From Candidatus Zhuqueibacterota bacterium (GTDB lineage: Bacteria; Zhuqueibacterota; Zhuqueibacteria; Residuimicrobiales; Krinioviventaceae): a stretch of 42,432 nt of DNA. Position numbers and translations under genes: made by a program. Below the pieces are notes generated by a model. The model saw only the letters and a list, made by a program, of their open reading frames with translations. It was not told the origin of the DNA and did no database searches. The stretch is from NCBI GenBank assembly GCA_016929295.1, contig JAFGJB010000225.1:1-42432 (forward strand). The letters are read 5' to 3'. Positions 3,750-36,808 of this stretch are shown one piece after another; the first letter of the stretch is position 1, and every line of letters starts with the position of its first letter.

Positions 3750-6700
3750 TTAATTTTTCGTTCGCATCTTTTGTTGCACATCCGGTTCATTTTGCAGTGT
3801 ATCTGTCCGCGTCCTGGTATCTGGAGGAGTCTCTTTATCCGTCTGCGGTGCGACCAACACATCTTTGAGCGTATCTATCTGAGTGCTCGAGTCTCTATTT
3901 GCCGGTCTTTCGAATTGCGAATTTGGCAATTCATTTAACACGGTATCTGACTGAGCGTCAGAGCCCGCATCAGTCGCTCTGTTAAATTGCGGCGCGACCA
4001 GCACATCTTTGAGCGTATCTATCCGGGCGATCGAGTCCGCATCAACCGTTCTACTGAATGGTGGCGCTGACGATTCTCTCAGCCGCCTGTCCGTTTGAGC
4101 GCGAGGATCAGCCTTGATTGTCTTGCCAAATGGCGCCGCTTCCTCGATTCTGCCGATCTTTTGCTTTGACTTTATGCGCAGAAACAACGGCGCTAAATCT
4201 TTTCCGCCAAAATCTGTCTCGGCCACATCCGGCAGTGAATCCTTGCTGACAAATTGAAACATGCTTGTGTCAAATCCGACGGTCTGCATGAGACCATTTG
4301 TCAGAACTGACGGATAGTCCATCTTGTCCTGCGTTGAATCTGACCACTGTATATCCCCGCGAATGGAATCCGCCACGAGTCGATATGGATGTCGGCTCAG
4401 GAAATCGGCATACACCTGTAACGGCTGGTCGCTATAGGCCAGGGGCATAGTTGATGTGTAATCGCCTGATTGACCTTGCACCAGATCCCACAGACGAATG
4501 GTCCCATCAGATGAGCCGGACGCCAATGTCCGACCATCCGGACTGAAGGCAACGCTCCTAGTCCAGCCGGTATGTCCCTCCAGCTGGTGGCGTTCAGTCC
4601 CGCTGGCGACATCCCAGATACGAACAGTGCCATCTTCTGATCCCGACGCCAACGTCACGCCGTCCCGGCTAAAGGCAACGCTAAAGATCCCTCCGCTCTG
4701 ATCCTCCAGGCGGCGAAGCTCAATCCCGCTGACGACATCCCAGAGACGAATGCTCTCATCCCATGAGCCTGAGGCCAATGTCGCGCCGTCAGGGCTGAAA
4801 GCGACACTTTCAATCGCACCGCTTTCACCCTTTAGGATGCTTCGTACAACTCCACTGGCAATATCCCAAAGACGAATGCTCCCATCTAATGATCCGGACG
4901 CCAATGTTCCACCGTCCGGGCTAAAGGCAACGCTGTTGACATCATCGGTATGACCCTCCAGCCAGCGGCGCTCAGTTCCGCTGGCAATATCCCAGAGACG
5001 AACGATCCTGTCAGCTGAACCGGACGCCAATGTCCGGCCATCCGGACTGAAGGCGACGCAGTAGACTACTCCGCTAGGCCCCCCCAGGCGAGCGCGTTCA
5101 GCACCGCTGGCAACATCCCAGAGACGAATGCTCCCATCATCCGAGCCGGACGCCAATGTCCGGCCGTCCGGGCTGAAGGCAATACATCTGATCCAGCCGG
5201 TGTGACCTTCCAAACGGCGGCGTTCCGCTCCGCCGGCTACATCCCAGAGACGAATGCTGCCATCTTCTGAACCGGACGCCAATGTCCGGCCATCCGGCCT
5301 GAAGGCAACGCATCTGACGTCATCAGTATGACCTTCCAGGCGGAGGCGTTCGTTAACTGCTGCCATAGCTTCACGAAAATGAGGGATGATCGGCGGCACG
5401 TACGGACTTGATTTACTTAACCACGCCAATCCCAACGAAAACATTATCAGTACACCGGCGACGGCCACCGGCAACCAGTCGAACCATGTCTTTGTCCTGT
5501 TGGAAAAAAAGCGGCGCAGCACATTTGGGACTCCTACAGCCAATCTTCGCGGTCGGCGGCCGGACATGTATGTCAGAAAGACATAATCATGCATGCCGCT
5601 CTCTTCCGGTGTGGTTTTCAGGAATTTCAAAATGCGACGCCAGTGCCGCCTTTTCAGGCCGGGGGTTCGGGCGACGTCCAGAATAAAACCCTGGCCCGGC
5701 TCTTCTATGGCGCTCTCTAATAAATCCTGCAACGCCTTACGGACTGCTGTTTCTCCTTGCCGACCCATCTCCTGTATGAGGCGCAGACGCCACCAATTCG
5801 GCATCATGCCGTACCTCAGCCACGGCAGGCGCGCCAATCTCAGCAGTCGTTCTTCGGTGATGAGCTTTTGCCCGGCGTCATCTAAGAGGCGATAGCCCAG
5901 ATAGATTGTCAAATCCCAGCCAAGCATGGGATATACGGCGCAGGCGCAGAGCCAGTAAAATCCCTCGTCTCCAAGATAGTTCATTAATTGGCGGCAGAGC
6001 TGCTCGACCTTTGCCGGTTCGGGCTCGTTTTGCTCCAAATAGAGCATGGGACGCTGCGCCAGCAGTTCAGGATATGCGGCAGCACCGTCGGCAGGGGAAA
6101 CGGAAAAGGTCAGGTTTCGCTGCATCGATTCAATGAGCACTGCCAATCCCGCTTGCGTGGCGGGCATCACCATGAAATCCTGGCCGGCCAACGCACTCTC
6201 TCGATAACCCCATTGCTCCGGGAATTCCGGCGTCAGCAGCGCCCGTTCATTCCAGTCGGAAAACTTTTCCAGCCAGCGTTGCGGTCGACCGGTGATCGGG
6301 TGCATCAGGCCGGCGCCGTCGCTAAAAATGAGCAAGCGATGGTCAGGGTAACGCATTGCCAAATCTGTCAGAGACTGGGCCGGCGCCACCGGCGTCTCGC
6401 CATAGCATGTTCGCGGATCGCCGTCGAAATAGTAACGATCGATGAACACGCCGCTTTCTTTCAGTCGGTTGAGCAGCTCGTCGGCCCGGCGCGCCTGCTG
6501 ATCATGAAAAGTCGCACGATCGACCAGCGCGAGATATTCGGGCAGCACCTGGCGGTCGCGATAAACCGGGGTGAAAACGCCTGCACGCCTGGCCGTGGCG
6601 TTCACCGTGGCGGCCGCATTCAGTTCCCGGGAGGCGATGTCGCGATGCAGGCGCAGTTGCTGAGCGGTGCGACGAAACAGCGGTCCGCGAAAAAGCTCGT

Positions 6701-7742
6701 CACTGCTCCCCCTGACGACGATGCGCTGCATCTCCGGAACCGACAAGGTTCGGCGCTTTTCCAACTGCAGCCGCCCTCTGAACCACCGCCAGATCATCCA
6801 CACGAGCAGGAAAGGTATATAGATGATAAATGAAAGAATAAAAGAGCGCAACAAACTCATACCAAAACTTGAAGGTTGTAATTGCAGTTGCTTTACTTCG
6901 AATCGATCCGCATAGTCATTGATCTCGTTCACCATCAGTCGCAATTTTTCAAGCTGAACGTCCTCTTCTCTTCTCGGAACCGGCTGCAAACGACGAAAGG
7001 CATCTGCCAGTTTGAGCGAGTCCAGCACGATGGTGGTATCAGGAGAACCGCTTTTATGCTCAATGAGTAGCGATGTCGGATTGAATTGAGGGTGATTCAC
7101 CGTCAAGCGACTGCTGCCTTTTTTGCTCGCATAGCGAAAATGAAACCGACCATCGCTAGCAGTGGTCTTTTGCTGATCCATGAATATGACGACGGCGTCG
7201 CTGACGGCTTTTATGTCGTGGGTCACGACATTTCCACTCAAGGTGAAAATTCTTTCCTGTGAGAGTATCTTAAAATAGAAAACGAGGACAATGCCCAGTA
7301 ACACGATCGTCCCCATCGCCACGCACAGCCATTGCAGATAACCGAGTCCCTTGGCTAATTCTTTGAGTCTCGCCGCCTGCTTCGGCACGGTTTCGGACGG
7401 CCTGGATCGCAGAGAAGCAAGCTTCTTTGCCGCCATTTTGAGTTTTCCGGCGAGATCCAGTTCTCCTTCCGCTGACCTTTCTACTGATGAATCCTCCATA
7501 AAGTATGGTCGCAAAGACAGCCAGCGGTTAAAGCGCTCGTAGAGTATGTCCTGTTCTTGTGGCGACGTGCAAAGGATCGGCGCCAGCAGGGTTTTCAATT
7601 TCCGGATATCCTGCGCCAGAGCGCCTTGTGCAGCCAGAGCCAGAACCAGGTCGTGCACGGCGATATACTGCTCGGTGCTAAAGTCAAATCCGCTTCGCCG
7701 CAGTTCTCCCAGAAAATCAAAAATGTCATCTGTCGTAAACAT
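3750..7742 (-). CDS. MoxR-associated membrane protein: vWA-like core and seven WD40 repeats
   Basis: Large four-part protein of 1330 residues, 9 bases downstream of the MoxR gene. The N-terminus (DIFDFLGELRRSGFDF) resembles the helical domain of MoxR-linked vWA/CoxE-type partners. A membrane segment (about 134-157), a carboxypeptidase-regulatory-like beta-sandwich (about 165-245) and a second membrane segment (about 297-320) follow. Residues about 395-510 look like a vWA-type fold (EYLALVDRATFHD, YYFDGDPRTC, LLIFSDGAGL, ALLTPEFPEQ), but the DxSxS metal-site motif reads DRATF. A third membrane segment (about 750-775) precedes seven WD40 repeats (about 794-1091). The tail holds imperfect repeats around DTLKDVLVAPQ. 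Positive-inside charges suggest that the WD40 propeller lies outside the cytoplasm. In related systems a MoxR ATPase remodels a vWA partner to control effectors. That role here is inferred. Confidence 0.88.
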   Translation of the reverse strand: MFTTDDIFDFLGELRRSGFDFSTEQYIAVHDLVLALAAQGALAQDIRKLKTLLAPILCTSPQEQDILYERFNRWLSLRPYFMEDSSVERSAEGELDLAGKLKMAAKKLASLRSRPSETVPKQAARLKELAKGLGYLQWLCVAMGTIVLLGIVLVFYFKILSQERIFTLSGNVVTHDIKAVSDAVVIFMDQQKTTASDGRFHFRYASKKGSSRLTVNHPQFNPTSLLIEHKSGSPDTTIVLDSLKLADAFRRLQPVPRREEDVQLEKLRLMVNEINDYADRFEVKQLQLQPSSFGMSLLRSFILSFIIYIPFLLVWMIWRWFRGRLQLEKRRTLSVPEMQRIVVRGSSDELFRGPLFRRTAQQLRLHRDIASRELNAAATVNATARRAGVFTPVYRDRQVLPEYLALVDRATFHDQQARRADELLNRLKESGVFIDRYYFDGDPRTCYGETPVAPAQSLTDLAMRYPDHRLLIFSDGAGLMHPITGRPQRWLEKFSDWNERALLTPEFPEQWGYRESALAGQDFMVMPATQAGLAVLIESMQRNLTFSVSPADGAAAYPELLAQRPMLYLEQNEPEPAKVEQLCRQLMNYLGDEGFYWLCACAVYPMLGWDLTIYLGYRLLDDAGQKLITEERLLRLARLPWLRYGMMPNWWRLRLIQEMGRQGETAVRKALQDLLESAIEEPGQGFILDVARTPGLKRRHWRRILKFLKTTPEESGMHDYVFLTYMSGRRPRRLAVGVPNVLRRFFSNRTKTWFDWLPVAVAGVLIMFSLGLAWLSKSSPYVPPIIPHFREAMAAVNERLRLEGHTDDVRCVAFRPDGRTLASGSEDGSIRLWDVAGGAERRRLEGHTGWIRCIAFSPDGRTLASGSDDGSIRLWDVASGAERARLGGPSGVVYCVAFSPDGRTLASGSADRIVRLWDIASGTERRWLEGHTDDVNSVAFSPDGGTLASGSLDGSIRLWDIASGVVRSILKGESGAIESVAFSPDGATLASGSWDESIRLWDVVSGIELRRLEDQSGGIFSVAFSRDGVTLASGSEDGTVRIWDVASGTERHQLEGHTGWTRSVAFSPDGRTLASGSSDGTIRLWDLVQGQSGDYTSTMPLAYSDQPLQVYADFLSRHPYRLVADSIRGDIQWSDSTQDKMDYPSVLTNGLMQTVGFDTSMFQFVSKDSLPDVAETDFGGKDLAPLFLRIKSKQKIGRIEEAAPFGKTIKADPRAQTDRRLRESSAPPFSRTVDADSIARIDTLKDVLVAPQFNRATDAGSDAQSDTVLNELPNSQFERPANRDSSTQIDTLKDVLVAPQTDKETPPDTRTRTDTLQNEPDVQQKMRTKN
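4470..5360 (-). repeat. Seven-unit WD40 repeat array
   Basis: Seven 42-residue (126-bp) units with the consensus VAFSPDGRTLASGS..GSIRLWDVASG make one predicted seven-bladed propeller. The units are very similar to those of the two STAND proteins at 16-26 kb, pointing to shared ancestry or gene conversion. Confidence 0.9.
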
Positions 7743-7751
7743 AAGCTGTAC

Positions 7752-8753
7752 TTACCTGGCTCTATCCATCCATTCTTTCAAGACGGCTTTCGATCTCTGC
7801 TGATCCTCGATTGTCTTGACGAGAGAGTTCAGAGTGCCGGCAATGCGCTCCGGCTGCTGGCGCAATGGATTTTCCAGACCATTCTTTTCGCCGATTTCGC
7901 GCAAGACCAGCAGCCATCCCAAGAGCTCTGCCGTGGCCGGCCGCTTTTGCAGGCCGCTCTCCGGCCGGCGCAGCAGATGAAAGAGATCAAGTGCATCATC
8001 GAGCAATTGACTGCTGCCGCCGGTGAACAGGCCCAGACGGGCGTCGATGATTTTTTTGAGGCGATCTTGATCCGGAAAAGGAATGTTATAGTAGATGCAG
8101 CGCCGCAAAAAAGCATCGGGCAGATGCTTCTCGGAATTGCTGGTGATGATCAAGATCGGTCGCAGCTCTTGCTGAGCCTCAATTTTGACATTTCCCAATT
8201 CGGGTATCTTGAAATACATGCCTTCGACTTCATTGAGAATGTCATTGGGGAAATCGCGCGGCGCCTTGTCCACTTCATCGATCAGCACCACAGATCGCCG
8301 GGGACCGTCATGATGAAAATCCGGCGGCAACCACGATGCGACCACCGATTTATCATTGGCGAGCAAGATCGCCAGGCCGAGCGCGTTATAGGTCAGATAG
8401 TCCAGGCTGTTCTGGCTGCCCTCACCGGTCTGCGCCGCGTGAAACCGACTGAGCGTGTCATAGGTGTAAAAGAGATCGCGCGCCGTGCTGGTCGATTTGG
8501 TCTCGAACTTGAGCGGCGGTTTGAATCCCAGCTCCCAGGCCACGCTGAAGGCCAGCTGCGTTTTGCCGGTGCCGGGTTCGCCGGTGAGCAGCAGCGGCTG
8601 GCCGAGAAGCAAGGCGACATTGACCGCATCGACCAGGCCGGAATCGGGCAAATACCTGGAGGGATCTTCGTGACCGGCGCGCTTGAATGGGGGCAGCTCA
8701 ATGGGTTTCATCTGACGTTTTTGCGGATCGCCGCTGTAAAAAGGGAATCTCAT
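7752..8753 (-). CDS. MoxR-family AAA+ ATPase
   Basis: AAA+ ATPase of about 333 residues. The Walker A motif is GEPGTGKT (residues 58-65) and the Walker B motif is VVLIDEVDKAP (from 155). It also has the sensor-type SNSEKHLPDAFLRRC segment characteristic of MoxR-like proteins. MoxR ATPases act as chaperones or remodelers of vWA-domain partners, and the vWA-like WD40 protein begins 9 bases downstream, so the two probably form one ATP-driven switch. The frame is open to a GTG at 8774, but AAGGAG at 8762-8767 lies 8 bases before the ATG at 8753. A second ATG at 8759 is only 2 bases from it. I therefore chose 8753. The N-terminal residues RYLPDSGLVDAVNVALLLGQ fit the family. Confidence 0.93.
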   Translation of the reverse strand: MRFPFYSGDPQKRQMKPIELPPFKRAGHEDPSRYLPDSGLVDAVNVALLLGQPLLLTGEPGTGKTQLAFSVAWELGFKPPLKFETKSTSTARDLFYTYDTLSRFHAAQTGEGSQNSLDYLTYNALGLAILLANDKSVVASWLPPDFHHDGPRRSVVLIDEVDKAPRDFPNDILNEVEGMYFKIPELGNVKIEAQQELRPILIITSNSEKHLPDAFLRRCIYYNIPFPDQDRLKKIIDARLGLFTGGSSQLLDDALDLFHLLRRPESGLQKRPATAELLGWLLVLREIGEKNGLENPLRQQPERIAGTLNSLVKTIEDQQRSKAVLKEWMDRAR

Positions 8754-8761
8754 AGTCATTG

Positions 8762-8767
8762 CTCCTT
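8762..8767 (-). promoter_or_regulatory. Ribosome-binding site that decides the MoxR start
   Basis: AAGGAG in the minus-strand message lies 8 bases before the ATG at 8753, favouring it over the GTG at 8774. Confidence 0.6.
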
Positions 8768-8792
8768 CATGCACTCATATTTTCACTCGCGT

Positions 8793-10304
8793 TCAACTCT
8801 GATATTCCTTCAAAAGTGTCCTTAACTCTTCTGCGAGGTACTCCATGGACAAACGCTCCTTTATACCCTGTTCATAGAGCGCTCGAATTTCGCGGAACAG
8901 TTCATCAATTTGACAGAATTGCTGGGCATGTTCATGGACCCATGTGAAAACTTCTGCTTGTGAAATTGATAAAAGCTCAGGCAGAACAATCCCCTGCACC
9001 TTGTCAAATGAGTTGAAATCAAGTTGCGTCAAAAAATGGCGAATTGCTTTGTTCAACCTCTTGTAACTGCGCCGGCGCCAAAATCCCTTCCCAACCGACT
9101 GCTGATAACCGATCGATATGCAAAAAATCAATACTTGCTCCCGGCTGTAATCAGGGAAATCATTCCAGAACTTTAAAAAGGCGCTCATCAGCTCCGGGCC
9201 AAAAGCCTCCCAGTTATCTGTGAACATGTCCGTTTGGATCATGATCGGTTTTTTCGTGCTCTTGATCGCCGTCTGCATTTCTTGAGGGGAAGCTTCGCTA
9301 TTTCCCAGCAATGCCTTTGCCAGACAACCCCGGACGCGATCGCCAATGAATTGCCGCGCACGAATGCTTGTCGGCCATTCCGCCACCTTTTTTTCTACGC
9401 CGCCATCCTCATCGTTGAGACCGAGAAGCTTTGGCAAGGTTATCTGGTGCAGCCGCATCAGGTACATATCATGACATTCATCTTCGTTGCCATGAATGAA
9501 GCAGACGAGAGGTCGCGCCGGCTTTTCTTTTTGCAAGTCGTTGAGCGCACGCCGGAGCTCCGCCTCCTGGCCGCTGCGGTCGCTCAAATAGGGCAATAGC
9601 TGCGGAATTGGCACGGGCTTTGTCAGCTCATCGATGGTGGGCAATTTCCACCGCCACGCTGCGCCGCCTTCTTCAGGATACAGCACCCACGGCCAGCCTT
9701 CTTTCTCGGCGGCTTTTTCTTTGTATAAATGGCGAGGATTATTTCCTTTTGCCGATTGAATATCGGCTACCGCTTCACTAAACGCTGTGCCAATGCAGGC
9801 GCCGCTGGCCAGACCCTTGTGAAATCTCGCGGCAAAGTCCGCTGCGACCGCATCGTCAATGTCCTGACTTGTGACAATGACCGCGGGAATGCCGGCCTCG
9901 AGCAATCCTTGTGCCTGTTTCTCGGTCGAGCAGCCATTGAGAAAAACCAATTGCAGACCACGCTGCTGCGCCAAAAAGGCAGCCAGTCCTGCAGCATGAA
10001 CGGGCTGCGGGCTGCCGCCCGGCGATTCCGCCAGGATCTGAAAACTGCCCGCATGGCCGCCGTAGTGAAAAATGGCGATTCGATCGCGATATTCCTGAAA
10101 AATATCGAAAATCTCCTGGCGCGTGGCGTTTGCCAAAGGCACAATATCGCATAATCCCGACCACCTGGCACTCTTTAAGGCGGCTTGAATCTGGCGGCTC
10201 TCTTCCGGCAAATTTCGTAAATAGCGGGTGCCGTTCTGCCTATCTTGCGCAAAGGCTAAAAAGATGACCGGCCTGGCGCCGGTGGGGTAAGGCGATTTCG
10301 GCAT
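8793..10304 (-). CDS. CHAT protease with C-terminal inactive-STAND-like domain
   Basis: The N-terminal 200 residues are a CHAT (caspase-like) protease. The catalytic His is in FHYGGHA (H84) and the Cys is in FLNGCST (C125). The C-terminal part begins with a segment (RPLVCFIHGNEDECHDMYL) resembling the degenerate P-loop region of 'inactive STAND' domains, which lack the Walker lysine. The rest is helical with no recognised motif. This pairing suggests a protease regulated through NTPase-like oligomerisation without its own ATP hydrolysis. The gene lies 39 bases upstream of MoxR, so it is a candidate effector of the MoxR/vWA-like switch. The frame is open to a TTG at 10325. I chose the ATG at 10304 because GGAAGG (10318-10323) precedes it and because the other CHAT proteins here also begin about 10 residues before the PVI(V/F)LAF strand. 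Confidence 0.9.
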   Translation of the reverse strand: MPKSPYPTGARPVIFLAFAQDRQNGTRYLRNLPEESRQIQAALKSARWSGLCDIVPLANATRQEIFDIFQEYRDRIAIFHYGGHAGSFQILAESPGGSPQPVHAAGLAAFLAQQRGLQLVFLNGCSTEKQAQGLLEAGIPAVIVTSQDIDDAVAADFAARFHKGLASGACIGTAFSEAVADIQSAKGNNPRHLYKEKAAEKEGWPWVLYPEEGGAAWRWKLPTIDELTKPVPIPQLLPYLSDRSGQEAELRRALNDLQKEKPARPLVCFIHGNEDECHDMYLMRLHQITLPKLLGLNDEDGGVEKKVAEWPTSIRARQFIGDRVRGCLAKALLGNSEASPQEMQTAIKSTKKPIMIQTDMFTDNWEAFGPELMSAFLKFWNDFPDYSREQVLIFCISIGYQQSVGKGFWRRRSYKRLNKAIRHFLTQLDFNSFDKVQGIVLPELLSISQAEVFTWVHEHAQQFCQIDELFREIRALYEQGIKERLSMEYLAEELRTLLKEYQS

Positions 10305-10317
10305 TGTTTTAACTGTG

Positions 10318-10323
10318 CCTTCC
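10318..10323 (-). promoter_or_regulatory. Ribosome-binding site for the CHAT/inactive-STAND gene
   Basis: GGAAGG lies 13 bases before the ATG at 10304. The spacing is long but still better than no site ahead of the TTG at 10325. Confidence 0.45.
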
Positions 10324-10454
10324 AATATTTGTGAGTCTTTGGCGATCGATCCGTTCTTGCCATTCTTCGGCAGATACTAAAGCATTTTGCATGTCATCCG
10401 TCTTGCTGCCGCTGAATGACGGATGCATCACTAACCTGAAAAATTCACCCGAAT

Positions 10455-16013: not shown

Positions 16014-19000
16014 CTATTTTGCTTTTGGCGCATTCTGCAGCAGCCAGTCGATCGGATCCATATCCGCCGGTCGCGGCGCTTCAAAAGCCTGCAGCGGCCG
16101 CGCTTTGGGAAATTGATAGCCATTGACCGCCGTCAAATGCATTGGCAATGGCCTGGCAACCAGCTCGATGTCCTGCAGGCGATAGGGCAACAACTGAAAC
16201 GACAAGGCATAAAGAGTCTTGAAACTGGAGGCCTTCCGCCCATCCTTTGCATAATCCTTGTAAAGAGTCATATTCCACAGACGAATGCCCCCCTCATCCG
16301 AGTCAGACGCCAATGTCCCGTCCGGGCTAAAGGCAACGCACAAGATTGCTCCGCCATGGCCCGTCAGGCGGCCACGCTCAGTACCACTGGCTAGATCCCA
16401 GAGACGAATGCTCCCGTCAGATGATGCGGACGCGAGCGTCTCGCGGTCAGGGCTGAAGGCAATGCTATTGACCCCTCCACCATGACCTTCCAGGCGGCTT
16501 TGTTCAACGCCGCTGGCAACATCCCGGAGATAAATGCTCCCATCTTCTGAGCCGCAGGCCAATATTTCGCCATCAGGACTGAAGGCAATACTAAAGATCC
16601 ATCCGGTACGATTCGCCAATTGGCTTTTTTCGACGCCGCTTTCAATATCCCAGAGACGAACGCTCCCGTCTCCTGATCCGGATGCCAATGTCCCGTCATG
16701 GTGAAAGGCAACGCACAAGACGGCCCCAGTATGACCCACCAGCCGGCTTTTTTCAATGCTGCTGGCAACATCCCACAGACAAATGCTCCCATCTCCTGAT
16801 CCTGACGCCAATGTCTTGCCGTCAGGGCTAAAGGCAACGCTATAAATCCATGCGGCGCGAACTTCCAGTCGGCTTCGTTCAATGCCGTTTTCAACATCCC
16901 AGAGACAAATACTCCCATCATGTGATCCGGATGCCAATGTCCCGCCGTCAGGACTGAAGGCAACGCTATTGACTTCTCTGGAATGAGCCGCCAGGCGACG
17001 TTCAACGCCATTGGCTACATCCCGGAGGCAAATATTCCCGTCATCTGTCCCTGACGCCACTATCTCGCCGTTCGGGCTGAAGGCAATGCTTCTGACCTCT
17101 CTGGAATGATCCGCCGGCCGGTGCAGAGCGCTGCCGGCTACATCCCAAAGACGAATGCTCCCATCTTCTGATCCGGACGCCAACAGGCCAACCGGGCTGA
17201 AGGCTAAGCTATTGACACCTGCAGCATGTCCGCCCAGGCGGCTTTGTTCAATGCCGCGCTCAACATCCCAGAGACGAATGCTGCCATCATTTGACCCGGA
17301 GGCCAATGTCTCGCCGTCCGGGCTGAAGGCAACGCTCTTGACTTCTCTGGAATGACCCGCCAGCGGGCGCTCAACGCCACTGGCTACATCCCAGAGGCGA
17401 ATGCTGCCATTTTCTGATCCGTACGCCAATGCTCCGCCGTTCGGGCTAAAGACAACGCTCAATATCCCTCCTGTATGACTCGCCAGGCGGTTGCGTACAA
17501 CGCCGCTTCCGACATCCCATATACGAATGCTCCCATCTCTTGAACCGGACGCCAATATCGTGCCGTCCGGACTAAAGGCAACGCTTCTGACATATTCGGT
17601 ATGACCCGTCAGGCGATTTCGTACGACGCCGCTTGCAATATCCCAGAGACGAATGCTCCCGTCAGATGATCCGGACGCCAAAGTCTCGCCACCCGGGCTG
17701 AAACTGACGCTATAGATCCCTCCACCATGGCCCAGCAGGCGGTTTCGTACAACGCCCACCACATCCCAAAGAAGAATGCTCCCATCATTTGACCCGGACG
17801 CCAATATTTCGCCGTCAGGGCTAAAGGCAACGCAACAGACTACACCGCTATGACCCTCCAGACGGTTGCGTTCAACGCCGCTTGCAACATCCCAGAGACG
17901 AATGCTCCCATCTTCTGATCCGGATGCCAAGGTCTCGCCGTCCGGGCTGAAGGCAACGCTATTGACCAGCTCAGCATGACCCTGCAGGCGGATTTGTTCA
18001 ACGCAGCTTACGACATCCCAGAGACGAATGCTCGCATCTCTTGATCCTGACGCCAATGTCTTGCCGTCCGGGCTGAAGACAACGCTTCGAATATAATCAG
18101 TATGACCCTCCAGGCGGTTGCGTTCAACGCCGCTTGCAACGTCCCAGAGACGAATACTCTTATCAGATGATCCGGACGCCAATGTCTCGCCGTCAGGACT
18201 AAAGGTAACGCTATTGACATCTCCTGCATGCCCCTGCAGGCGGATTCGTTCAACGCCTTTTGTAACATCCCAGAGACAAATGCTTTTATCTTCTGAACCG
18301 GATGCCAACGTCTCGCCGTCCGGGCTGAAAGCAACGCAATGGACCACTCCGGCATGACCTGCCAGGCGGATGGGTTCACCACCGCTTACAACATCCCAAA
18401 GACGAATACTCCCATCATATGACCCGCAGGCCACTATCCTGCCATCAGGGCTGAAGGAAATGCCATAGACCCACCCGGTATGTCCCTCCAGACGTTTTCG
18501 TGCAACGCCGCTTGCGACATCCCAGAGAAAAACGCTCCCATCTGCTGATCCGGATGCCAATGTCTTGCCATCCGCGCTAAAGGCAACGCTATTAACATCA
18601 TCTGCATGACCCTCCAGGCGTATTCGTTCAGCGCCGCTTGCAACATCCCAGAGACGAATGCTCTTGTCAGACGATCCAGACACCAATGTCGCGCCATCCG
18701 GGCTGAAAGCAATGCTATAAACCCATCCGGTATGACCGGCCAGTTGGATTCGTTCAACACCGCTGGCAATATCCCAGAGACGAATGCTCCCGTTTTCTGA
18801 CCCGGACGCCAATGTCTCGCCGTCCGGACTGAAGGCAACGCATGACATTCTCCCCTGACCACCCGGCAAAATTCTGCAACCGGTGAATGCCGCCATGTGC
18901 AAATCAGATTGCAGCAATCTGCCAAGAGAGATCGGTAGCGAACGATTAGCAGGGATTTGCTGATCCAGCGCGGCCAGGGTATAAAGCCAGGCTTGCCGGT

Positions 19001-22324: not shown

Positions 22325-25300
22325 TCACTTGAAAATAGTAAACAACCATTCCCATGGCCTTTTCTTTTTCATCTCTTTTGGCGCATTCTGCAATAGCCAA
22401 TCGATGGGATCCATATTTACCGGCCGCGGCTCCTCAAAAGCCTGCAGCGGCCGCGCTTTGGGAAATTGGTAGCCATTGACTTCCGTCAAATGCAACGGCA
22501 ATGGCCTGGCGACCAGCTCGATTTCCTGCAGCCGATAGGGCAGCAATTGAAATGACAAATCATAAATAGTTCTGAAACTGGACGCCTGCCGGCCGTCCTT
22601 TATATAATCATTGTAAAGACGCATATCCCAGAGACGAATGTATCCATCTACTGATCCTGATGCCAATCTCCCGCCATCAGGACTGAAGGCAATACTTATG
22701 ACTGGTCCGCTAAGACTCTCCAGGCGGCTGCGTTCTACGCCATGCGCAACATCCCACAGACGAATGCTCCCATCATATGAGCAGGACGCCAATGTCCCGC
22801 CGTCCGGGCTGAACGCAACGCTATAGACTTGTCCACTATGGCCCTCCAAGCGGTAGGATTCTATTCCGCTCGCAAGATCCCACAGATGAATACTCCCATC
22901 ATATGATCCGGATGCCAACGTCCTGCCGTTCGGACTGAAGGCAACGCTTGAGACTTCACCATCACTTTCTAGCCGGACGCGCTCAGCCCCGCTGGCAACA
23001 TCCCACAAAAAAATGATACTATCACTTGCTCCAGATGCCAATGTCTCTCCGTCCGAGCTAAAAGCAACGCTTCTGACAACATCGTTATGCGCTTCTAGGC
23101 GGTGGCGTTCAACACCGCTCGCAACATCCCAGATACGAATACTCCTATCAAATGATCCGGATGCCAGCGTCCTGCCGTCCGGGCTGAAGCTAACGCTTAA
23201 GACATATCCAGCATGTCCAGCCAGGTGGCGTTCAACTCCATTCTCAACATCCCATAGACGAATAAGCCCATCAGATGACCCGGACGCCAATGTCTTGCCA
23301 TTCGGGCTAAAGTCGACGCTAATGATCCATCCAATATTAGCTTCCAGCCGTTTGAGTTCAGCCCCACTGCTTGCATCCCACAGACAAATAGTAGTAGTAT
23401 CACTTGATCCAGATGCCAATATCCCGCCGTCCGGGCTGAAGGCAACGCTTAAAATATATCCAGCATGCTTCCTCAGGCGGTGTTTAATGCCACTCTCAAT
23501 ATCCCAGAGACGAATGCTCCCATTGTCTGAGCCGGACGCCAATATCCCCCCGTCCGGGCTGAAAGTAACGCCATTAATCCTTCCGCAATGACCCTCCAGG
23601 CGGCGTTCAACGCCGCTCGCAACATCCCACAGACGAATGTTCCCATCATCTGAGCCAGACGCCAATGTCCCGCCATCCGGGCTGAAGGCAACGCCATTAA
23701 TTCTTCCGCAATGACCCTCCAGGTGGCGTTCAACGCCACTCGCAACAGTCCACAGACGAATAGTCCCATTAGATGACCCGGAAGCCAATATCTTACCATT
23801 CGGACTGTAAGCAATACTTTTGACACTATCTGTATGAACCTCCAGGCGGCGGCGTTCAACACCGCTCGCAATGTCCCACAGACGAATGCTCCCATCATAT
23901 GACGCAGACGCTAATGTCCCGCCGGCTGGGCTGAAGGCAACGCTTCTGACAACATTGGTATGCCCTTCCAGGCGGCGGCGTTCGATGCCACTCATAACAT
24001 CCCAGAGACGAATGCTCCCATTTCTTGACCCGGACGCCAATGTCTCGCCGTCTAGGCTGAAAGCAACGCTAAAAACTCCTCCAGCATCGCTCTCCAGTCG
24101 GACGCGCTCAGCCTTGCTGGCCACATCCCACAAACAAATAGTACTATCACTTGATCCGGATGCTAATGTTCTGTTGTCAGGGCTGAAGGCAATGCTATTG
24201 ACTGGTTTAGTGTGACCATTAAGCCGGTGCTCAGCCTCGTTGGTGACATCCCAGAGATGAATGCTACCATCATTTGAACCGGAAGCCAGCATCTTGCCGT
24301 TTGAGCTGAGGGCAATGCTAAGGACTTCTCCGGCATCACCACACAGCCTGGCACGCTCAGTACACTTGGCAATATCCCAGAGACGAATGCTCCCATCAGA
24401 GGCCCCGGACGCTAATGTCTCGCAATTCGGACTGAAAGAGATGCTTAAGACATACCCTGAATGACCCTCCAGGCGACGCTCAGCCTCACTGTCAACATCC
24501 CAAATACGTATGTTCCCATCAGATGAGCCGGAGGCTAATGTCTTGCCGTCCCGGCTAAAGCCGACGCTAAAGATCCATCCAAATTTACCTTCCAGCCGCT
24601 TGAGTTCAGCCCCACTGCTTAAATCCCACAGAGAAATAGTACTATCACTCGATCCAGATGCCAATGTCCTGCCATCCGGGCTGAAGGCAAGGGCTAAAAT
24701 CCATCCCGAATGACCCTCCAGGTGGCGGCGCTCAGCTCCGCTGGCTACGTCCCAGAGACAAATGGTACTATCAGTTGATACAGACGCTAATGTCCTACTG
24801 TCCGGGCTGAAGGCAAGGCAAAAAAACCATCTTGAATGACTCTTCAAGCGGCGATGTTCAAATCCGCTTGCAACATCCCAGAGATAAATAGTACTATCAA
24901 TTGACCCAGACGCCAATGTACGACCATCAGGGCTGAAGGCAACGCTCAAGACCATCCCGCCATGACCCTCCAGGTGGCGGCGTTCTACACCGCTAGCCAC
25001 ATCCCATAGACGAATACTCCCATCAATTGACCCGGACGCCAATGTCACGCCGTCCGGGCTGAAGGCAACGCTATTGACCTGTCCAACATGCCCCTCCAGG
25101 CGGACGCGCTCAGACCCGCTAGCAACATCCCAAAGTCGAATGTTCCCATCTTCTGACCCGGATGCTAATGTCACACCATCAGGGCTGAAGGCAACACACT
25201 TCATATTTCCGTGACTACCGGATAAAATTCGGCAGATTGGGAATGCCGCCATGCGTAAATCGGGCTGCAGCAATCTGCCAAGAGAGATCGGTAGCGAACG

Positions 25301-28646: not shown

Positions 28647-29555
28647 TCAGCCAACCAAAATAAAAGGCGCCCAGTAATAGGGATGATGATAGATTTCGAA
28701 CTCGACATTGATATCTACGCCAATATGTCTCGTTTTGCTTATTTTTTTAATGGCTAACATTTTGCTCATCATCGCCTCCGGCTTGAGGTTTCTCAAAAAC
28801 AGCTGGGCGGTCTGCAGAGCTTTGGCGACGGACTCTCCCTGACTCTGGCAACGGTAAAACTCACCCATCAGCAAGCTGGTAGAAACATCATCAACTGGCC
28901 ACAAGCTGACAACGGCAGATCGAGCACCGGCGCCCAGCAATCCTCGTGTAAATCCAATTAAATCATCCCCTCCGGTGACATCTCCCAACGCAGTTTCGCA
29001 TGCACTAAGGACCACCAGCTCGGCATTCAAGTTCATTCCCATCAGCTCATATACACTCATGGCCTCCCCATCTGCCAGAAGTATTTCAGATAGCATGGGT
29101 GCGTTTTCCAGCAAAACAGCGTGCGTCGCGAAATGCAAAAGAGGGTAATCCGGCAAAAGTTGCCGCACCGTCGACTCGGTCGCTTCATCGCCAACCAGAC
29201 TTTTGCCCCGGGGAAACAGGCTTGCCACATATATCGCCTCCAGCTCGGCGGCCGGCAAAGAATTCGCCGCGACGCTCTTGCCGCTGAGCGGTGGACGATG
29301 AGACATTCTGCCGGGATTCCCTACCGTCAGGATGGTTTTGGGCAGTTCGCTCCGGCGCTGAATATATTGCAGGGTGCCGGCGCTTGGGAGATAAGAAATT
29401 CGCATGGTTTCCGCCAATGGTTTATCCCGCCACCACAATGCCTGGAAAGGCATGGCATGCGCTGAGCCGTGCGGGACCACGATCAGCTCGCTACAGGAGC
29501 CGAGCAGGTCGGAAAACGGCGCTAAAAATATCTCGGCCAGCTCTTTTCCGAGCAC
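28647..29555 (-). CDS. CHAT-domain part of an amber-interrupted TPR-CHAT protease
   Basis: 302 codons from a GTG at 29555. It is a complete CHAT domain: LIVVPHGSAHAMPFQAL, catalytic His in LLHFATHAVL (H145), Cys in LVVLSACETALG (C186), and the GARSAVVSLWPVDD signature. It continues in the same frame as the upstream TPR gene after a single TAG (29562-29564), with codons for Trp and Ile between that stop and the GTG. TPR-CHAT fusions of exactly this order are common, so this was one gene. No convincing ribosome-binding site precedes the GTG (GGAG is 13 bases away). The domain is therefore made by readthrough, by weak re-initiation, or not at all. Confidence 0.8.
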   Translation of the reverse strand: MLGKELAEIFLAPFSDLLGSCSELIVVPHGSAHAMPFQALWWRDKPLAETMRISYLPSAGTLQYIQRRSELPKTILTVGNPGRMSHRPPLSGKSVAANSLPAAELEAIYVASLFPRGKSLVGDEATESTVRQLLPDYPLLHFATHAVLLENAPMLSEILLADGEAMSVYELMGMNLNAELVVLSACETALGDVTGGDDLIGFTRGLLGAGARSAVVSLWPVDDVSTSLLMGEFYRCQSQGESVAKALQTAQLFLRNLKPEAMMSKMLAIKKISKTRHIGVDINVEFEIYHHPYYWAPFILVG

Positions 29556-29561
29556 GATCCA

Positions 29562-32390
29562 CTAATCGCTCCGAGGATTTCTGCAGGAGCGATGAAAAGC
29601 GGCGATCATCCTGTTGATGGCTTTTTCATCCTGCAGCGAATGGTGACTCACAGGATCGCCTGAGGATGGAATGGCCCAGGCCAGAAAATCATCTTGCAAA
29701 AAGTAATATTTTATCAGGAGCGATCCGCGTGCAAGTCTGCGCTGCACGTCCTGCCTGGACAAAATGGGCGCTTGCGTCCTTACCGTCTGGTAAAATCCCG
29801 GCACAGAGTGGATCAATTCCGCTTCGATCCGCTCGAGCTCGTCGCTGCCGGCAGCAATCTGCCGGCTGATATGGTCGATCTGTTCGGCATCGGCATTCGA
29901 TTTACCGCGTTCCAGTGCTGACAAACCTCGCCAGGCATTGATTTGCGCATTCAGCTCACGCCAGCGCTTGAGCGCAGGATTCTCCGCCGCGAAACGGCCG
30001 CGAAAAACGGCATTGGCAGCCATCAAATCCAGCAGCGCACGGGCTTTGGCGCGCTCTGCATAATTGAATGCTTTTTCCACAAATGCGTCATCATTTTTCG
30101 CCATGCCGCCGTTTTTTTCCGCGGCTCGGCAAGCGGCTCGGGCTGCTTGAAAGTAGAGGTACTGGGCGCCCTGATCCGCTGCCAAAGCCGTCTTCAATTC
30201 ATCTCTGCTGAGCAGATGCCGGCGCTCTTCGAGGGCGGTGATCGCTTTATCATAGTATTCCAGGGCAGTCGAATAGTCTTTTAATCCCTCATAGAGTTCG
30301 CCGCAATCGCTCAAATCCAGCCATGGACGTTCACCAGCACATTGCCAATCGGGGCCGGCAATTTTATCCAGTTGATCCAAAAATTCTTTTGCCGAATCAT
30401 ATGCCTTGATTCGCACATGAAAGCTCAAAGCCTGCTCCAGCGTGCGGCGGTATTGCTGTCGCGCCTCCTGTTCACCGCCTTCACCGCCCGCTGATTTCAG
30501 TACAGCGGCCAGTTGTCCCATGGAACCGGCATCGACGCCTCCCAGCTCCATATAATGCTGAAAAGCTTGTCGCGCACTATCATATTGTCTCATCTGGCCA
30601 TAGACGACCGCTTGCAACCAGGACTTGTTTTCTTCCAAGTCGTTTGTAGCCATCAACGCCTGATTAAAAAAGCGATCAGCTTGAGACAGGTCACCGTTAT
30701 CACGGGCGTGCTTTCCCCGATAGAACGGAACAAGTACTTGAGCTTGTTCGACGGTCGTTTTGATCATGGTGAATAACGCTATTTTTTCAACGCCCTCGGT
30801 GGCTGATAAAACCTTTTGATCGCTCAAACGCCGTGCGCACCGCTCCATGCCGTCAGCTTCGAGCTCTTGCAGATAAAGCTGATAGACTTGATTGGCAAGC
30901 ATGATAAATGTCGGGGATAAGCTTCCGGCCAATGCTGTGGATTGTGAGATGACCAGGGTGAGCATATCCAGTGATTGCTCGTACAGGGTGAGAGCCGTTT
31001 TTCGATCACCGATCGTCTGATAAACCGCCCCTTGATCGACGACTGATTTGATGGCATTGAACGTCGCGCCGAGGGATTTGTAGAGCGATTCGGCAAGGCG
31101 ATAGCAGGCGAGAGAACGTTCGGCATCACCGCGACGAATGAGCCAGTGGCGACCCGCCCGACCGATGAATAATCCCAATCCAAGCGCATAGCTGTAACTG
31201 CCCGCACCGGCCCCCCAGACGCCTGTTTCTTCAGCCAAAGGTTGGAGATCGCTAAACGTGCCGGTGCCGACGCGCGCGAGCAATTGATGCGCCAGTGCCA
31301 GGTAATAGGCAAATCCATCACCGGTATCGAGGGCGTATTGAATGGCTTGCTGGATATGTCCTTTCGCCTGGACAAAATCGTTTTGTATCATTGCGAGATA
31401 GCCATAGCGAAGATACAGTTGCGCCAATCCTCTTGGCGCTTGAGCCTGTTTGAAGAAGATTTCAGCTCTTTGATAATCTTGCAGCGCCGCCGGAACGTCG
31501 GCGCCATCCAGGTTGAATTCCGCTGCCTCTGTGGTCCAGGCTAAGTCACTGCCGAACGAATTGCCTTCCTGAACGGAGAAATTCCACACCAGCGGCGAAC
31601 TGAACGGTGCGCATCGCCAATCACCCCACGTCATGTGGCAGAGCGCCTGACCAGCAGCATCGTCATTTTCAGAATAAACAGCCAGAGCCTGGTTGAGAAA
31701 ATCCTGGCCCATTTCCATTCGTCGAGCGCGTTTGCAGAGATCAGCGCAGGCCCACAAGGCGTAACCATTCCACCCCGAGGGGGCGTGATAATATTTAAGG
31801 TCGCTTTGGATGGTCGCTATGCTTTGCAGGAATGAATCAAGAATTTGCCGGCAAAACATCTCTGATCGGTAATCCATGGATTGGATGACGGAACGCTGCG
31901 ATTGCAGTCCAGTGAGAAGATGAGCCAGCAGCGTATAGTCGGCCTTTGCCGACGCCGCCTTGCGAAAGAATTCCTCCTGCAGTGGTTGGTATTTGTTCCA
32001 GAAGGTATTGCCATCCCAGCGCGCGGCGATTTCAACGCCATTGGCGCCGGCGCGATCCGGGAACAGGTTAAAGCGCCACATCTCAGCCAGGATATTATGC
32101 GCCAGCGCCCTGAGCAGCAAATCGCTGTCGGCCTCAGAAGAGTTATAACACTTTTCAAGGTATTCCATGGCTTTGGCAGGTTCGCCGCCGAGCAGAGAGA
32201 TGACTCCTTCTATATAAGCAGCTTGGGCGGCGAGGCGAGTGACATCCTCCCCCGGCAATTGCCGGACGGCGGCGGTTGCGCGCTTTTTCGTCTGGGAGAA
32301 ATTCCCCTTGTATTCTTCATAAATGATCGCATCATTGAATGCTGCATCTTGAATTGGATCTAGAAATTTCACACATCTCTCCTCAGTCAT
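29562..32390 (-). CDS. TPR part of an amber-interrupted TPR-CHAT protease
   Basis: 942 residues ending at TAG. It is made of helical tetratricopeptide-like repeats throughout, with clear units such as DYSTALEYYDKAITALEERR and AFNYAERAKARALLDLMAAN. The second of these is the usual junction helix just before a CHAT domain. The residues before the stop (LIKYYFLQDDFLAWAI) already form the first strands of the CHAT region, so the protein stops inside the domain. TPRs in such proteins bind the partner or substrate. The ATG follows GAGG by 8 bases. If the stop is real, the island makes a TPR-only product that could act as a decoy or scaffold. Confidence 0.85.
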   Translation of the reverse strand: MTEERCVKFLDPIQDAAFNDAIIYEEYKGNFSQTKKRATAAVRQLPGEDVTRLAAQAAYIEGVISLLGGEPAKAMEYLEKCYNSSEADSDLLLRALAHNILAEMWRFNLFPDRAGANGVEIAARWDGNTFWNKYQPLQEEFFRKAASAKADYTLLAHLLTGLQSQRSVIQSMDYRSEMFCRQILDSFLQSIATIQSDLKYYHAPSGWNGYALWACADLCKRARRMEMGQDFLNQALAVYSENDDAAGQALCHMTWGDWRCAPFSSPLVWNFSVQEGNSFGSDLAWTTEAAEFNLDGADVPAALQDYQRAEIFFKQAQAPRGLAQLYLRYGYLAMIQNDFVQAKGHIQQAIQYALDTGDGFAYYLALAHQLLARVGTGTFSDLQPLAEETGVWGAGAGSYSYALGLGLFIGRAGRHWLIRRGDAERSLACYRLAESLYKSLGATFNAIKSVVDQGAVYQTIGDRKTALTLYEQSLDMLTLVISQSTALAGSLSPTFIMLANQVYQLYLQELEADGMERCARRLSDQKVLSATEGVEKIALFTMIKTTVEQAQVLVPFYRGKHARDNGDLSQADRFFNQALMATNDLEENKSWLQAVVYGQMRQYDSARQAFQHYMELGGVDAGSMGQLAAVLKSAGGEGGEQEARQQYRRTLEQALSFHVRIKAYDSAKEFLDQLDKIAGPDWQCAGERPWLDLSDCGELYEGLKDYSTALEYYDKAITALEERRHLLSRDELKTALAADQGAQYLYFQAARAACRAAEKNGGMAKNDDAFVEKAFNYAERAKARALLDLMAANAVFRGRFAAENPALKRWRELNAQINAWRGLSALERGKSNADAEQIDHISRQIAAGSDELERIEAELIHSVPGFYQTVRTQAPILSRQDVQRRLARGSLLIKYYFLQDDFLAWAIPSSGDPVSHHSLQDEKAINRMIAAFHRSCRNPRSD

Positions 32391-32744: not shown

Positions 32745-35534
32745 CTACTTGTCTCTGTTTATCACCGTTTTTAGATCGGCCTCAACTTGCCGCAGCGCCG
32801 CGAGAATCGCCTCCCGACCTTCTTTGATTTCTATGGCGGCGAGGAGCTGCAACAGCCAGTCGCGGTAATGCGCCAATTGCGGCTCGACGCTGATATAGTG
32901 TTTCGTGCCCTCGAATGACCAACCGACTTGCAAAGTGTCGGGCTGGGCGGCGGCGGTTTGCTGCAGTGTTTCCAGGGTGGCCGGAATTCTTTGGATTTGC
33001 TGAAGCGCGGCGAAATTGGCGATTTGAATGGCGCGCAGCGCGATTTGGCTGCTTTGCTTAATTTCTGCATTGGTCAATAGTGCGGCGAGGCGTTGCTCGC
33101 ACTCTGGAAAACGACCGCTGGTAAAATGCTTTTCGGCAAAATCGCATTGGGCGGACAGATCCTCGGGATGGCGGCGCAGCCAGTTTTCATTTAACGCAAA
33201 AGCCGAAGCATAATCCGCCGGATATTGATGTAACACTTCATGATAAAGATAACTGGCAGTTTGGTAAGCTTGTTCATGATCCGGATAAACTTGCAGTACA
33301 TTGGCATAACAGAGAGCGACGTTGGGCCAGTCTTCAAGTGCGGTATAACTTTTAGCGAGATTGTTTTGGCTTTGTGCCCAATCAACCGGCAGCTGCTCAA
33401 AGGTTCGTACTTCAAGTGATGCTTTGAGCGCCGCCACCGCTTGCGCCAACAACGCCGCGCCGGCTTCTCCGCCGCTGTGAATGCCCTGCTCAGAAAGCGC
33501 AGTCCCCAGATTGTTTTGCGTCATCGCCCAGTCTTGCGGCAATTGCTCGCGGGTATAAACCTGCAAGGCATTTTGGTACGCCGCCACCGCTTGCGCCAAC
33601 AATGCCGCGCCGCCTTCCCCGCCGGTGCGAATGCCCTGCGCTTTAAGCGCATTCCCCAGGTTGTTTTGCGTGGTAGCCCACGGTTGCGGCAGTTGCTCGC
33701 GAGTATAAACCTGTAAGGCATTTTGGTACGCCACCACCGCCTGCGCCAACAATGCCGCGCCGGTTTCCCCGTCAGTGCGAATGCCCTGCGCTTTAAGCGC
33801 AGCCCCCAGATTGATTTGCGTAGCAGCCCACTGTTGCGGCAGTTGCTCGCGGGTATAAACCTGCGAGGCATTTTGGTACGCCGCCACCGCTTGCGCCAAC
33901 AATGCCGCGCCGCCTTCCCCTCCGGTGCGAATGCCTTGCGCTTGAAACGCACGCCCCAGATTGTTTTGCGTGGTAGCCCACTGTTGCGGCAGTTGCTCGT
34001 GGGTATAAACCTGCAAGGCATTTTGGTATGCCGCCACCGCCTGCGCCAACAATGCCGCGCCGCCTTCCCCGCTGGTGCGAATGCCCTGCGCTTGAAGCGT
34101 ATTCCCCAGATTGTTTTGCGCGGCAGCCCACTGCTGCGGCAGTTGCTCACGGGCATAAACCTGCAAGGCATTTTGGTACGCCACCACCGCCTGCGCCAAC
34201 AATGCCGCGCCGCCTTCCCCGCCGGCGCGAATGCCCTGCGCTTGAAGCGCAAGCCCCAGATTGTTTTGCGTGGTAGCCCACTGTTGCGGTAGTTGCTCGC
34301 GGGTTCTCACCTGCAAGGCATTTTGGTACGCCACCACCGCCTGCGCCAACAAGTCCGTGCCGGCTTCCCCGCCGGTGCGAATGCCCTGCTCTTGAAGCGC
34401 AGTCCCCAGATTGTTTTGCGTCATGGCCCAGTCTTGCGGCAGTTGTTCGCGGCTATAAACCTGCAAGGCATTTTGGTACGCCGCCGCCGCCTGCGCCAAC
34501 AATGCCGCGCTGGCTTCCCCGCCGATGCGAATGCCCTGCTCTTGAAGCGCGCTCCCCAGATTGTTTTGCGTTTTAGCCCACTGTTGCGGCAGTTGCTCGC
34601 GAGTATAAATCTCAAATGCCTCGCGGTAGGCTTGTTCAGATTCTTTTAAAAAAATGGCGGCCTTGGCTCCCTCGCATCGAGTGCCAATATCTTGTTTGGT
34701 ATTGCCGATAAAGATGCGAATCTCGGCCCATTCGCCGGGAAAATCCTCCCTGGGAACAAGGGCGCTCGCTTTTTCATACTTGGTCAAGGCCTCGGCAAAT
34801 TGATAAACAGTGGATAAGGAGTTGCCCGCATCTTTGCGGTTTTGGTAAATTTCCAAAACTTTCTGCCGTCGCGCCTCTTCAATTTCTTTCAATTCAGCTT
34901 CGCCCTCATCGGCCGCTTCGTCAAAATACCGCGCTGCCAGAACAAAGTTTCTCTGGTAAAACTCGCGCAAAGCTTTCGTTCGTTTATCTGTCGAGTCTTT
35001 GACCGCGCTCGCCCATTGATCAAAGGCGGCCTTCACCTCTGCCGGCTTGAAGCCGTATTTGTCCGCCCACTCGCTGATGTAATAGGAAAAGTCAACTGGT
35101 TTAGGCTTGTCGCCTTCCTTCTTTAATTTGGCGATTTCGTCGGAGAGCAGGGCAATGTGCTTTTCAATGCGGGCATGCGTCCACAGCGCTTTGGAGCCTT
35201 TGGGCACGATGATGACTTTGGTGTATTGGGTGGACGCCTCCTGCCATTTTTTGGCGGGCAGATTCCATTCGCCATCGAGCGGATGGTTGATGAGCCAGTC
35301 TTTTTTGTCAACGACAAGCAGGACGCGCTCGCCTTCGATGAAATCCAAAGGGAGCTTGATGCTGAACTGGCCTTTGGAATCGGTGATATCACCGGGCCCG
35401 GCGGTTACGCCAATCCTGGTCGCGGGCACAGGTTTTTCGGCGTCGGTGAGCAGGTTGCCATTGAGGGTGATTTGCGCTTGCGCGGCCGTCAACCATCCGC
35501 AGCACAGCAGCAAAAATAATCGCGTGCGCTTCAT
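32745..35534 (-). CDS. Secreted TPR protein with beta-sandwich domain and eight 50-residue repeats
   Basis: 929 residues. A signal peptide (RLFLLLCCGWLTAAQA, cut near residue 20) is followed by a carboxypeptidase-regulatory-like beta-sandwich (about 20-110). A linker with coiled coil comes next. Eight near-identical 50-residue TPR-type units (REQLPQQWATTQNNLG, then QGIRTGGEGGAALLAQA and AYQNALQVYT) and one divergent unit (VDWAQSQNNLAKSY) follow. A further helical TPR region reaches the end. It is probably a periplasmic or surface protein. The ATG directly follows the TGA of the membrane CHAT gene, and GGAGG lies inside that gene's end, so the two are translationally coupled. The shared beta-sandwich supports a physical pair, with this protein as an extracytoplasmic sensor or ligand. 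Confidence 0.9.
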   Translation of the reverse strand: MKRTRLFLLLCCGWLTAAQAQITLNGNLLTDAEKPVPATRIGVTAGPGDITDSKGQFSIKLPLDFIEGERVLLVVDKKDWLINHPLDGEWNLPAKKWQEASTQYTKVIIVPKGSKALWTHARIEKHIALLSDEIAKLKKEGDKPKPVDFSYYISEWADKYGFKPAEVKAAFDQWASAVKDSTDKRTKALREFYQRNFVLAARYFDEAADEGEAELKEIEEARRQKVLEIYQNRKDAGNSLSTVYQFAEALTKYEKASALVPREDFPGEWAEIRIFIGNTKQDIGTRCEGAKAAIFLKESEQAYREAFEIYTREQLPQQWAKTQNNLGSALQEQGIRIGGEASAALLAQAAAAYQNALQVYSREQLPQDWAMTQNNLGTALQEQGIRTGGEAGTDLLAQAVVAYQNALQVRTREQLPQQWATTQNNLGLALQAQGIRAGGEGGAALLAQAVVAYQNALQVYAREQLPQQWAAAQNNLGNTLQAQGIRTSGEGGAALLAQAVAAYQNALQVYTHEQLPQQWATTQNNLGRAFQAQGIRTGGEGGAALLAQAVAAYQNASQVYTREQLPQQWAATQINLGAALKAQGIRTDGETGAALLAQAVVAYQNALQVYTREQLPQPWATTQNNLGNALKAQGIRTGGEGGAALLAQAVAAYQNALQVYTREQLPQDWAMTQNNLGTALSEQGIHSGGEAGAALLAQAVAALKASLEVRTFEQLPVDWAQSQNNLAKSYTALEDWPNVALCYANVLQVYPDHEQAYQTASYLYHEVLHQYPADYASAFALNENWLRRHPEDLSAQCDFAEKHFTSGRFPECEQRLAALLTNAEIKQSSQIALRAIQIANFAALQQIQRIPATLETLQQTAAAQPDTLQVGWSFEGTKHYISVEPQLAHYRDWLLQLLAAIEIKEGREAILAALRQVEADLKTVINRDK
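33402..34601 (-). repeat. Eight tandem 150-bp repeats encoding TPR units
   Basis: Exact 150-bp period, for example matching segments at 33552 and 33702. Units differ at only a few positions and several differences recur between units, consistent with recent expansion and gene conversion. The array can change length without shifting frame. Confidence 0.93.
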
Positions 35535-36590
35535 TCATTCCTCCAAAACAAGTTTGGCGGGCCCGGGAAGGGTGACGTATTCATTATGGAGCAGACGCCC
35601 CTGTTGATAAATGTAAATCCTCACCCGCTCGTTGATTTTTCCGGGAATCTCGGCAAAATAAAAACCGCCAAAGCTGTCGGTATATGTGGTGTCTCTTTGC
35701 AAACCTTCCGCGATGATCATGGCGTTGGCGAGAAACTCGCCGTCACTGTTTTTCACCCAGCCGCCCAAAGGGGTGGTGGCTATTTCCTCATGAGAAGGCG
35801 GATTGGCAGAAAAGTACTTGTCTCGCAGTTCCGTCAAGCCGAGAATGATCGCCAGAATGCCGCCAATCAATCCCACCCAGGTCTGCCAGCGCTCCAGCAA
35901 TGGCTTTTTCGGTGGAGTCGACAGATCGTCTGCCGCTTCCGACAGGCGCCAGGCGCGCGCTTCGTCATAGTCCTGTGGATAAAGCTGCCATGGCCAGCGG
36001 TCGTCATGTCCCGCGCCTTCCATATACAAATGCCGCACGTCATCGCCCCTCTGCGTCCGCACCGCTGCGGCGGCTTCTTCATACGCTTCGCGAATGTTGT
36101 CGCCATTGCCCAGGCCTTTGTAGAACAGCGCCGCAAAATCGGCGGCCACCGCATCATCGATGGCTTGCGATGTGGCAATCACTGCCGGCACCTTGTTGTG
36201 CAGCAATCCCTGCACCTGCTGTTCCGTGGAGCAGCCATTGAGAAAGACCAGTTGCAGACCGCGCTGCTGTCCGAGAAACGCGGCCAGGCCGCCGGCATGC
36301 GCGAGTTTGGTTTTGCCTTCCGGAGATTCGAGAAGAAGTTGAAAGCCGTTGGCATGTCCGGCGTAATGAAAAATAGCAATGCGATGGCGAAAGCGCCGAT
36401 CCTGAAAAACCTCGATGATCTGCTCGACCGTCGCATAGGGCAGGTCTTGAACCTCGCATAACCTGGCAACGTCGCTGTTGCGCAGAATGCCGCACAGCTC
36501 ACGGTGCTCATCCGCCAGCCTGGGCAGAGGATGGGCCGGATCATTGGCAAAGGCCAGAAGGATGACGGGTTTGGCGTTGGTTTCTCGCAT
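35535..36590 (-). CDS. Membrane-anchored CHAT protease with C-terminal beta-sandwich
   Basis: 351 residues. The CHAT domain has PVILLAF, catalytic His79 in FHYAGHA and Cys120 in FLNGCST. Its sequence is closer to the CHAT of the inactive-STAND gene (FLNGCSTE, AVIATSQAIDDAVAADFAA) than to the STAND-paired CHATs. A membrane segment follows (about 238-253, VGLIGGILAIILGL) and then a carboxypeptidase-regulatory-like domain (about 275-351). With the protease inside, the C-terminal domain is outside the membrane. AAGGA precedes the ATG. It is the first gene of the run that continues to 3.75 kb, and it is coupled to the secreted TPR gene. A cross-envelope sensor-protease pair is a reasonable reading. 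Confidence 0.92.
   Translation of the reverse strand: MRETNAKPVILLAFANDPAHPLPRLADEHRELCGILRNSDVARLCEVQDLPYATVEQIIEVFQDRRFRHRIAIFHYAGHANGFQLLLESPEGKTKLAHAGGLAAFLGQQRGLQLVFLNGCSTEQQVQGLLHNKVPAVIATSQAIDDAVAADFAALFYKGLGNGDNIREAYEEAAAAVRTQRGDDVRHLYMEGAGHDDRWPWQLYPQDYDEARAWRLSEAADDLSTPPKKPLLERWQTWVGLIGGILAIILGLTELRDKYFSANPPSHEEIATTPLGGWVKNSDGEFLANAMIIAEGLQRDTTYTDSFGGFYFAEIPGKINERVRIYIYQQGRLLHNEYVTLPGPAKLVLEE
35540..35544 (-). promoter_or_regulatory. Ribosome-binding site inside the end of the membrane CHAT gene
   Basis: GGAGG lies 5 bases before the ATG of the TPR gene and within the last codons of the CHAT gene, whose TGA touches that ATG. Confidence 0.65.
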
Positions 36591-36808
36591 GCGGGCGTCC
36601 TTCTACTATTTCAGGTTCAGGACTGTATCAAAAGTGTCTTTTTAACCGCAAAGGACGCAAGGCACACAAAGGATAACATATTAAATATCTTGACGTTGCG
36701 ATCTCTGCGAATTCTTTGCGATCTTTATTAAATGTTCTTGATGACTTTAGCTACAGTCCCAGTCAGAGTGAGGGAGTGATTGATGAGATGAAATCACCCT
36801 CACCCTGG

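Follow-up and report, generated by a model that had tools for sequence, protein, structure and literature searches.

The gene studied here lies on the minus strand of the window, by which we mean the whole 42,432-base stretch of DNA that was analysed, and runs from an ATG at 32390 to a TGA at 28647-28649, a frame of 1,248 codons in which codon 943, a TAG (29562-29564), is the sole internal stop. The original prediction had placed this TAG in frame with both of its flanks, giving no strand, and the frame bears this out: the other 1,247 codons are open and contain no frameshift. The upstream part of 942 codons (29565-32390) has TPR matches only in Pfam, and comprises the TPR-repeat region and the segment preceding the CHAT core. 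The downstream part (28647-29561), which ends in the TGA, holds a complete CHAT protease domain: PF12770 matches residues 2-302 of this 302-aa ORF (E 2.2e-67) with 228 bits against a curated cut-off of 24, covering profile positions 3-288 of 289, which places it firmly within the CHAT family. The stop thus falls between the sensor part and the protease part, in a linker of variable length directly before the CHAT domain, and the two regions share a frame that the TAG divides rather than a single polypeptide.

Both predicted catalytic residues are found, on the same minus strand, 3′ of the TAG: His 1090 in the motif FATHAV (29121-29123) and Cys 1131 in the motif LSACET (28998-29000), which we take, from general knowledge of the CHAT family, to be its catalytic pair. 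They are intact, as had been claimed. The coding signal is the same on either side of the stop, with codon-usage scores of 0.110 and 0.103 for the two halves (genome quartiles 0.099-0.175), and the remaining two frames of this strand score negative over the TAG site. A search for a solved structure by sequence gave no PDB match at E 0.01, and a single-sequence fold around the TAG site (mean pLDDT 39) was too poor for use.

Two features adjoin the stop. The first in-frame start-like codon 3′ of the TAG is a GTG only two codons on (29553-29555, minus strand), with a GGAG 13 nt upstream of it, which is a long spacing; it is a possible weak restart site. Restart at this codon, yielding a separate CHAT protein, is a fourth option that was missing from the original prediction, where the GTG went unmentioned. 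Start-like codons are, at the same time, frequent in the TPR-CHAT gene, 18% of its codons having one within three codons. The other feature is a perfect 8-bp inverted repeat with a 13-nt loop (29565-29572 and 29586-29593), of doubtful significance, which directly abuts the TAG, so that a hairpin containing the GGAG ends immediately before the stop. The local RNA fold has a z of -1.68, and 13 of 200 shuffles fold as well, which is not significant. About 25 such perfect repeats occur across the 42,432-base window, and the chance of one abutting the TAG exactly is ~0.06% per position, or 0.2% within 3 nt. The repeat was noticed only in hindsight, as one of several features that might have drawn notice, and we treat it as an unexplained coincidence.

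The neighbouring genes identified by Pfam are caspase-like, CHAT, STAND/WD40 and TIR genes, together with a MoxR-like AAA gene and a CHAT-iSTAND fusion; the last two lie beside each other at 3750-10325, along with a membrane protein carrying WD40 repeats. Two STAND-like genes (16275-18841 and 22730-25195) each contain ~20 tandem 126-bp WD40 units, and each has a short CHAT gene downstream or upstream of it. At 33429-34609, a TPR gene contains a 150-bp unit repeated ~8 times with 88% match, which suggests recent repeat expansion or homogenisation. A second TAG, near 36600, came up in a profile search; it lies in stop-rich intergenic DNA, 5′ of the start codon of a CHAT gene (35535-36590), and hence does not mark a second split gene.

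The host assembly is a metagenome-like draft, 96% complete, which totals 4.34 Mb over 367 contigs. Only one other genome (78% complete) represents the genus, and it gave no match; the first 690 residues of the protein (30321-32390) have no relative in the 82 genomes of the phylum. The best matches in the 63 genomes of the class reach ~33% identity and span the CHAT region together with the stretch that immediately precedes it; among the matches listed from that search, the interrupted TPR-CHAT gene alone has an internal stop. Neither an orthologue nor a second copy of the site came up when genus, class and phylum were searched with the complete protein or its N-terminal 690 residues, when the genome contigs were searched with the protein or the exact flanking DNA, or when viral contigs and plasmid proteins were searched.

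More distant homologues do cover the site. We aligned 32 distinct homologous genes, three of them paralogues in the host genome, and all 32 are continuous across the position of the TAG, none of them being a close orthologue. This is the outcome of the comparison with relatives proposed in the original prediction, and, with TPR repeats before the stop and PF12770 after it, it upholds the view that the two parts join as a normal TPR-CHAT protein. An uninterrupted gene in relatives is what would be expected of a pseudogene. A stop conserved among orthologues is what would be expected of readthrough, and in the genomes searched there is no orthologue and the homologues lack the stop. The linker holding the TAG is 11 to 24 residues long among the homologues, and 25 of the 32 have a gap at the TAG column, so that the ancestral residue there cannot be inferred.

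TAG is an ordinary stop codon in this organism. Among non-overlapping ORFs in a 426-kb sample of the host genome, it terminates 59 of the 301 with at least 100 codons (20%) and 32 of the 175 with at least 300 codons; in the window, it terminates the ORFs at 16014 and 32745, in keeping with its ordinary use as noted originally. Release factor 1 reads UAG, and its gene, prfA, is intact. The sole match to pyrrolysyl-tRNA synthetase (PylS) scores far under the cut-off, which is also the case in most control genomes. A check for an amber suppressor tRNA, also proposed at the outset, came back empty, with no CUA anticodon among the detected tRNAs (28 matches, an incomplete set). Ordinary TAG use, intact prfA, no PylS above cut-off and no CUA tRNA detected together make recoding of TAG in the host very unlikely as judged from its genome, and we do not regard it as a TAG-recoding organism. 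Additionally, no Rfam family matches within the window and shuffled sequences fold as well as the 100 nt 3′ of the TAG (z = -0.36); neither result gives a positive indication of programmed readthrough.

On this basis, the reading that we consider reasonably probable from the sequence is that the TAG is an ordinary, recent nonsense allele separating the TPR part from its CHAT protease. The interruption itself is plainly present in the assembled gene, and we infer that it reflects a true mutation. On this view, one nonsense codon would have arisen in a single-copy accessory TPR-CHAT gene, itself part of a cluster of conflict-type caspase-like and STAND/WD40 genes, at the linker that leads into the CHAT domain. 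Ribosomes would halt at the TAG via release factor 1, as ordinary TAG use and the intact prfA suggest, and would release a 942-residue TPR protein without its protease; the CHAT part would go untranslated or, through restart at the GTG, be produced in small amounts. With the other 1,247 codons undamaged and both halves still coding-like, the allele is probably of recent origin. Against this reading, a natural split gene would look similar, with its stop where two domains meet and a start codon close to it. Furthermore, the gene is missing from the other genome of the genus, and no true orthologue was found from which to infer the ancestral codon, date the lesion or measure selection.

The rest of the assembly offers a comparison. 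The 426-kb sample was scanned for frames running across one stop, and seven candidates were tested with Pfam; most proved to be neighbouring genes sharing a frame. A copy of a CorA-type transporter on another contig, however, has a single TAA inside its one domain, as seen with Pfam and confirmed by a genome search (L084:15599-16684 on G000:C356, with the TAA at L084:16121); other copies of the CorA family are intact. The interrupted TPR-CHAT gene is thus not the only accessory gene of the assembly with a single-stop lesion. No stop was found in any of 47 ABC-ATPase domains, and a cut CorA copy alongside uncut ABC-ATPase domains is what one would see if stops became established in genes that the cell can do without.

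The strongest alternative, possible but not likely in our judgement, is that the real gene is intact and the TAG is an artefact of sequencing or assembly, or else a variant from a minority strain that became fixed in the consensus. The original prediction had named nonsense mutation, readthrough and error as its options; a single-lesion interruption of a normally continuous gene stood up, readthrough found no support, and the evidence at hand fits both mutation and error, with mutation favoured. The fragmented assembly (367 contigs, 96% complete) and the intactness of the remainder of the gene would suit an error, as would the inverted repeat abutting the TAG, which this reading can use just as well as a restart can: such repeats have been linked to systematic short-read errors in an earlier study, as far as the account of it in PMC4787001 goes, a paper that itself favours another cause for such errors. 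At a consensus error of 1e-5 per base, one would calculate ~0.015 nonsense codons in the genes of the window and ~1.6 genome-wide, so an error is possible but needs no special appeal; the 47 ABC-ATPase domains without any stop also speak against it.

A functional split would be a different matter: a TPR sensor and a CHAT protease would be made from one mRNA by coupled restart at the GTG at 29553. The position of the TAG exactly before the CHAT domain is suggestive, as is the GTG two codons on with its upstream GGAG, and a hairpin that holds the GGAG and ends directly at the stop would suit coupling; GTG, GGAG and inverted repeat could together serve such a restart and yield a separate CHAT protein. 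Several points weigh against it. The GGAG stands at a long distance from the GTG, the hairpin does not differ significantly from shuffled sequence, and a start-like codon this close is to be expected at nearly a fifth of the codons of the gene. The strands preceding CHAT would, moreover, be parted from the protease core, and a split here is seen in no homologue, whether aligned or among the class-wide matches listed, so that restart at the GTG gains no support from relatives. We therefore hold the functional split to be unlikely. Its more elaborate form, a two-part caspase-like switch with a stop-coupled GTG restart and the ribosome-binding sequence inside the hairpin that ends at the TAG, appears slightly more unlikely still.

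Regulated readthrough, by which a small amount of full-length protein would be made across the TAG, is less probable again and has in our view a slim chance. The frame and the coding signal do persist 3′ of the stop, and in-frame stops followed by conserved sequence are reported to be common in prokaryotes, where readthrough has been proposed for them, the stops being mostly short-lived (PMC7918605). Set against this are the unremarkable downstream RNA and lack of an Rfam match, the absence of the stop from all relatives searched, the intact prfA and the lack of a detected suppressor tRNA. Finally, that the host reads TAG as pyrrolysine or through an amber suppressor tRNA has nothing in its favour except the in-frame TAG itself and a tRNA set incomplete enough for a suppressor to be missed, and with TAG ending 20% of sampled genes, prfA intact, PylS below cut-off and no CUA anticodon detected, we give it almost no weight.

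If the TAG is a true nonsense allele, one more accessory and probably conflict-related protease has been silenced by a point change, an event that is common and often short-lived. Were the stop conserved and both halves translated, the pair would be a simple, natural split caspase-like sensor and protease, and of moderate interest.

Three known systems can be set beside the interrupted gene. Csx29, of the type III-E CRISPR Craspase (PMC9729208), likewise has a TPR region, a linker and a CHAT domain with a His-Cys pair; the likeness over the whole gene is architectural only. No PDB sequence matches at E 0.01, and by Pfam none of the window's main ORFs is a Cas7-11 (gRAMP) or other CRISPR effector. 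The gene set at 3750-10325 resembles the MoxR-vWA-iSTAND ternary conflict systems (Kaur et al., 2020; PMC7159879), to which the interrupted gene is linked by neighbourhood only; it is not among their three core components. That an accessory set of this sort should lose one of its members would be unsurprising. The third parallel is with the nonsense-interrupted bacterial genes surveyed by Belinky et al. (2021; PMC7918605). Unlike those, the present stop has no orthologous counterpart in a second species. It shares with them a single in-frame stop in an otherwise intact gene, with no sign of further decay, and because in-frame stops of this sort are reported there to be widespread in bacterial genes and mostly short-lived, the interrupted TPR-CHAT gene would be an ordinary case of a known kind.
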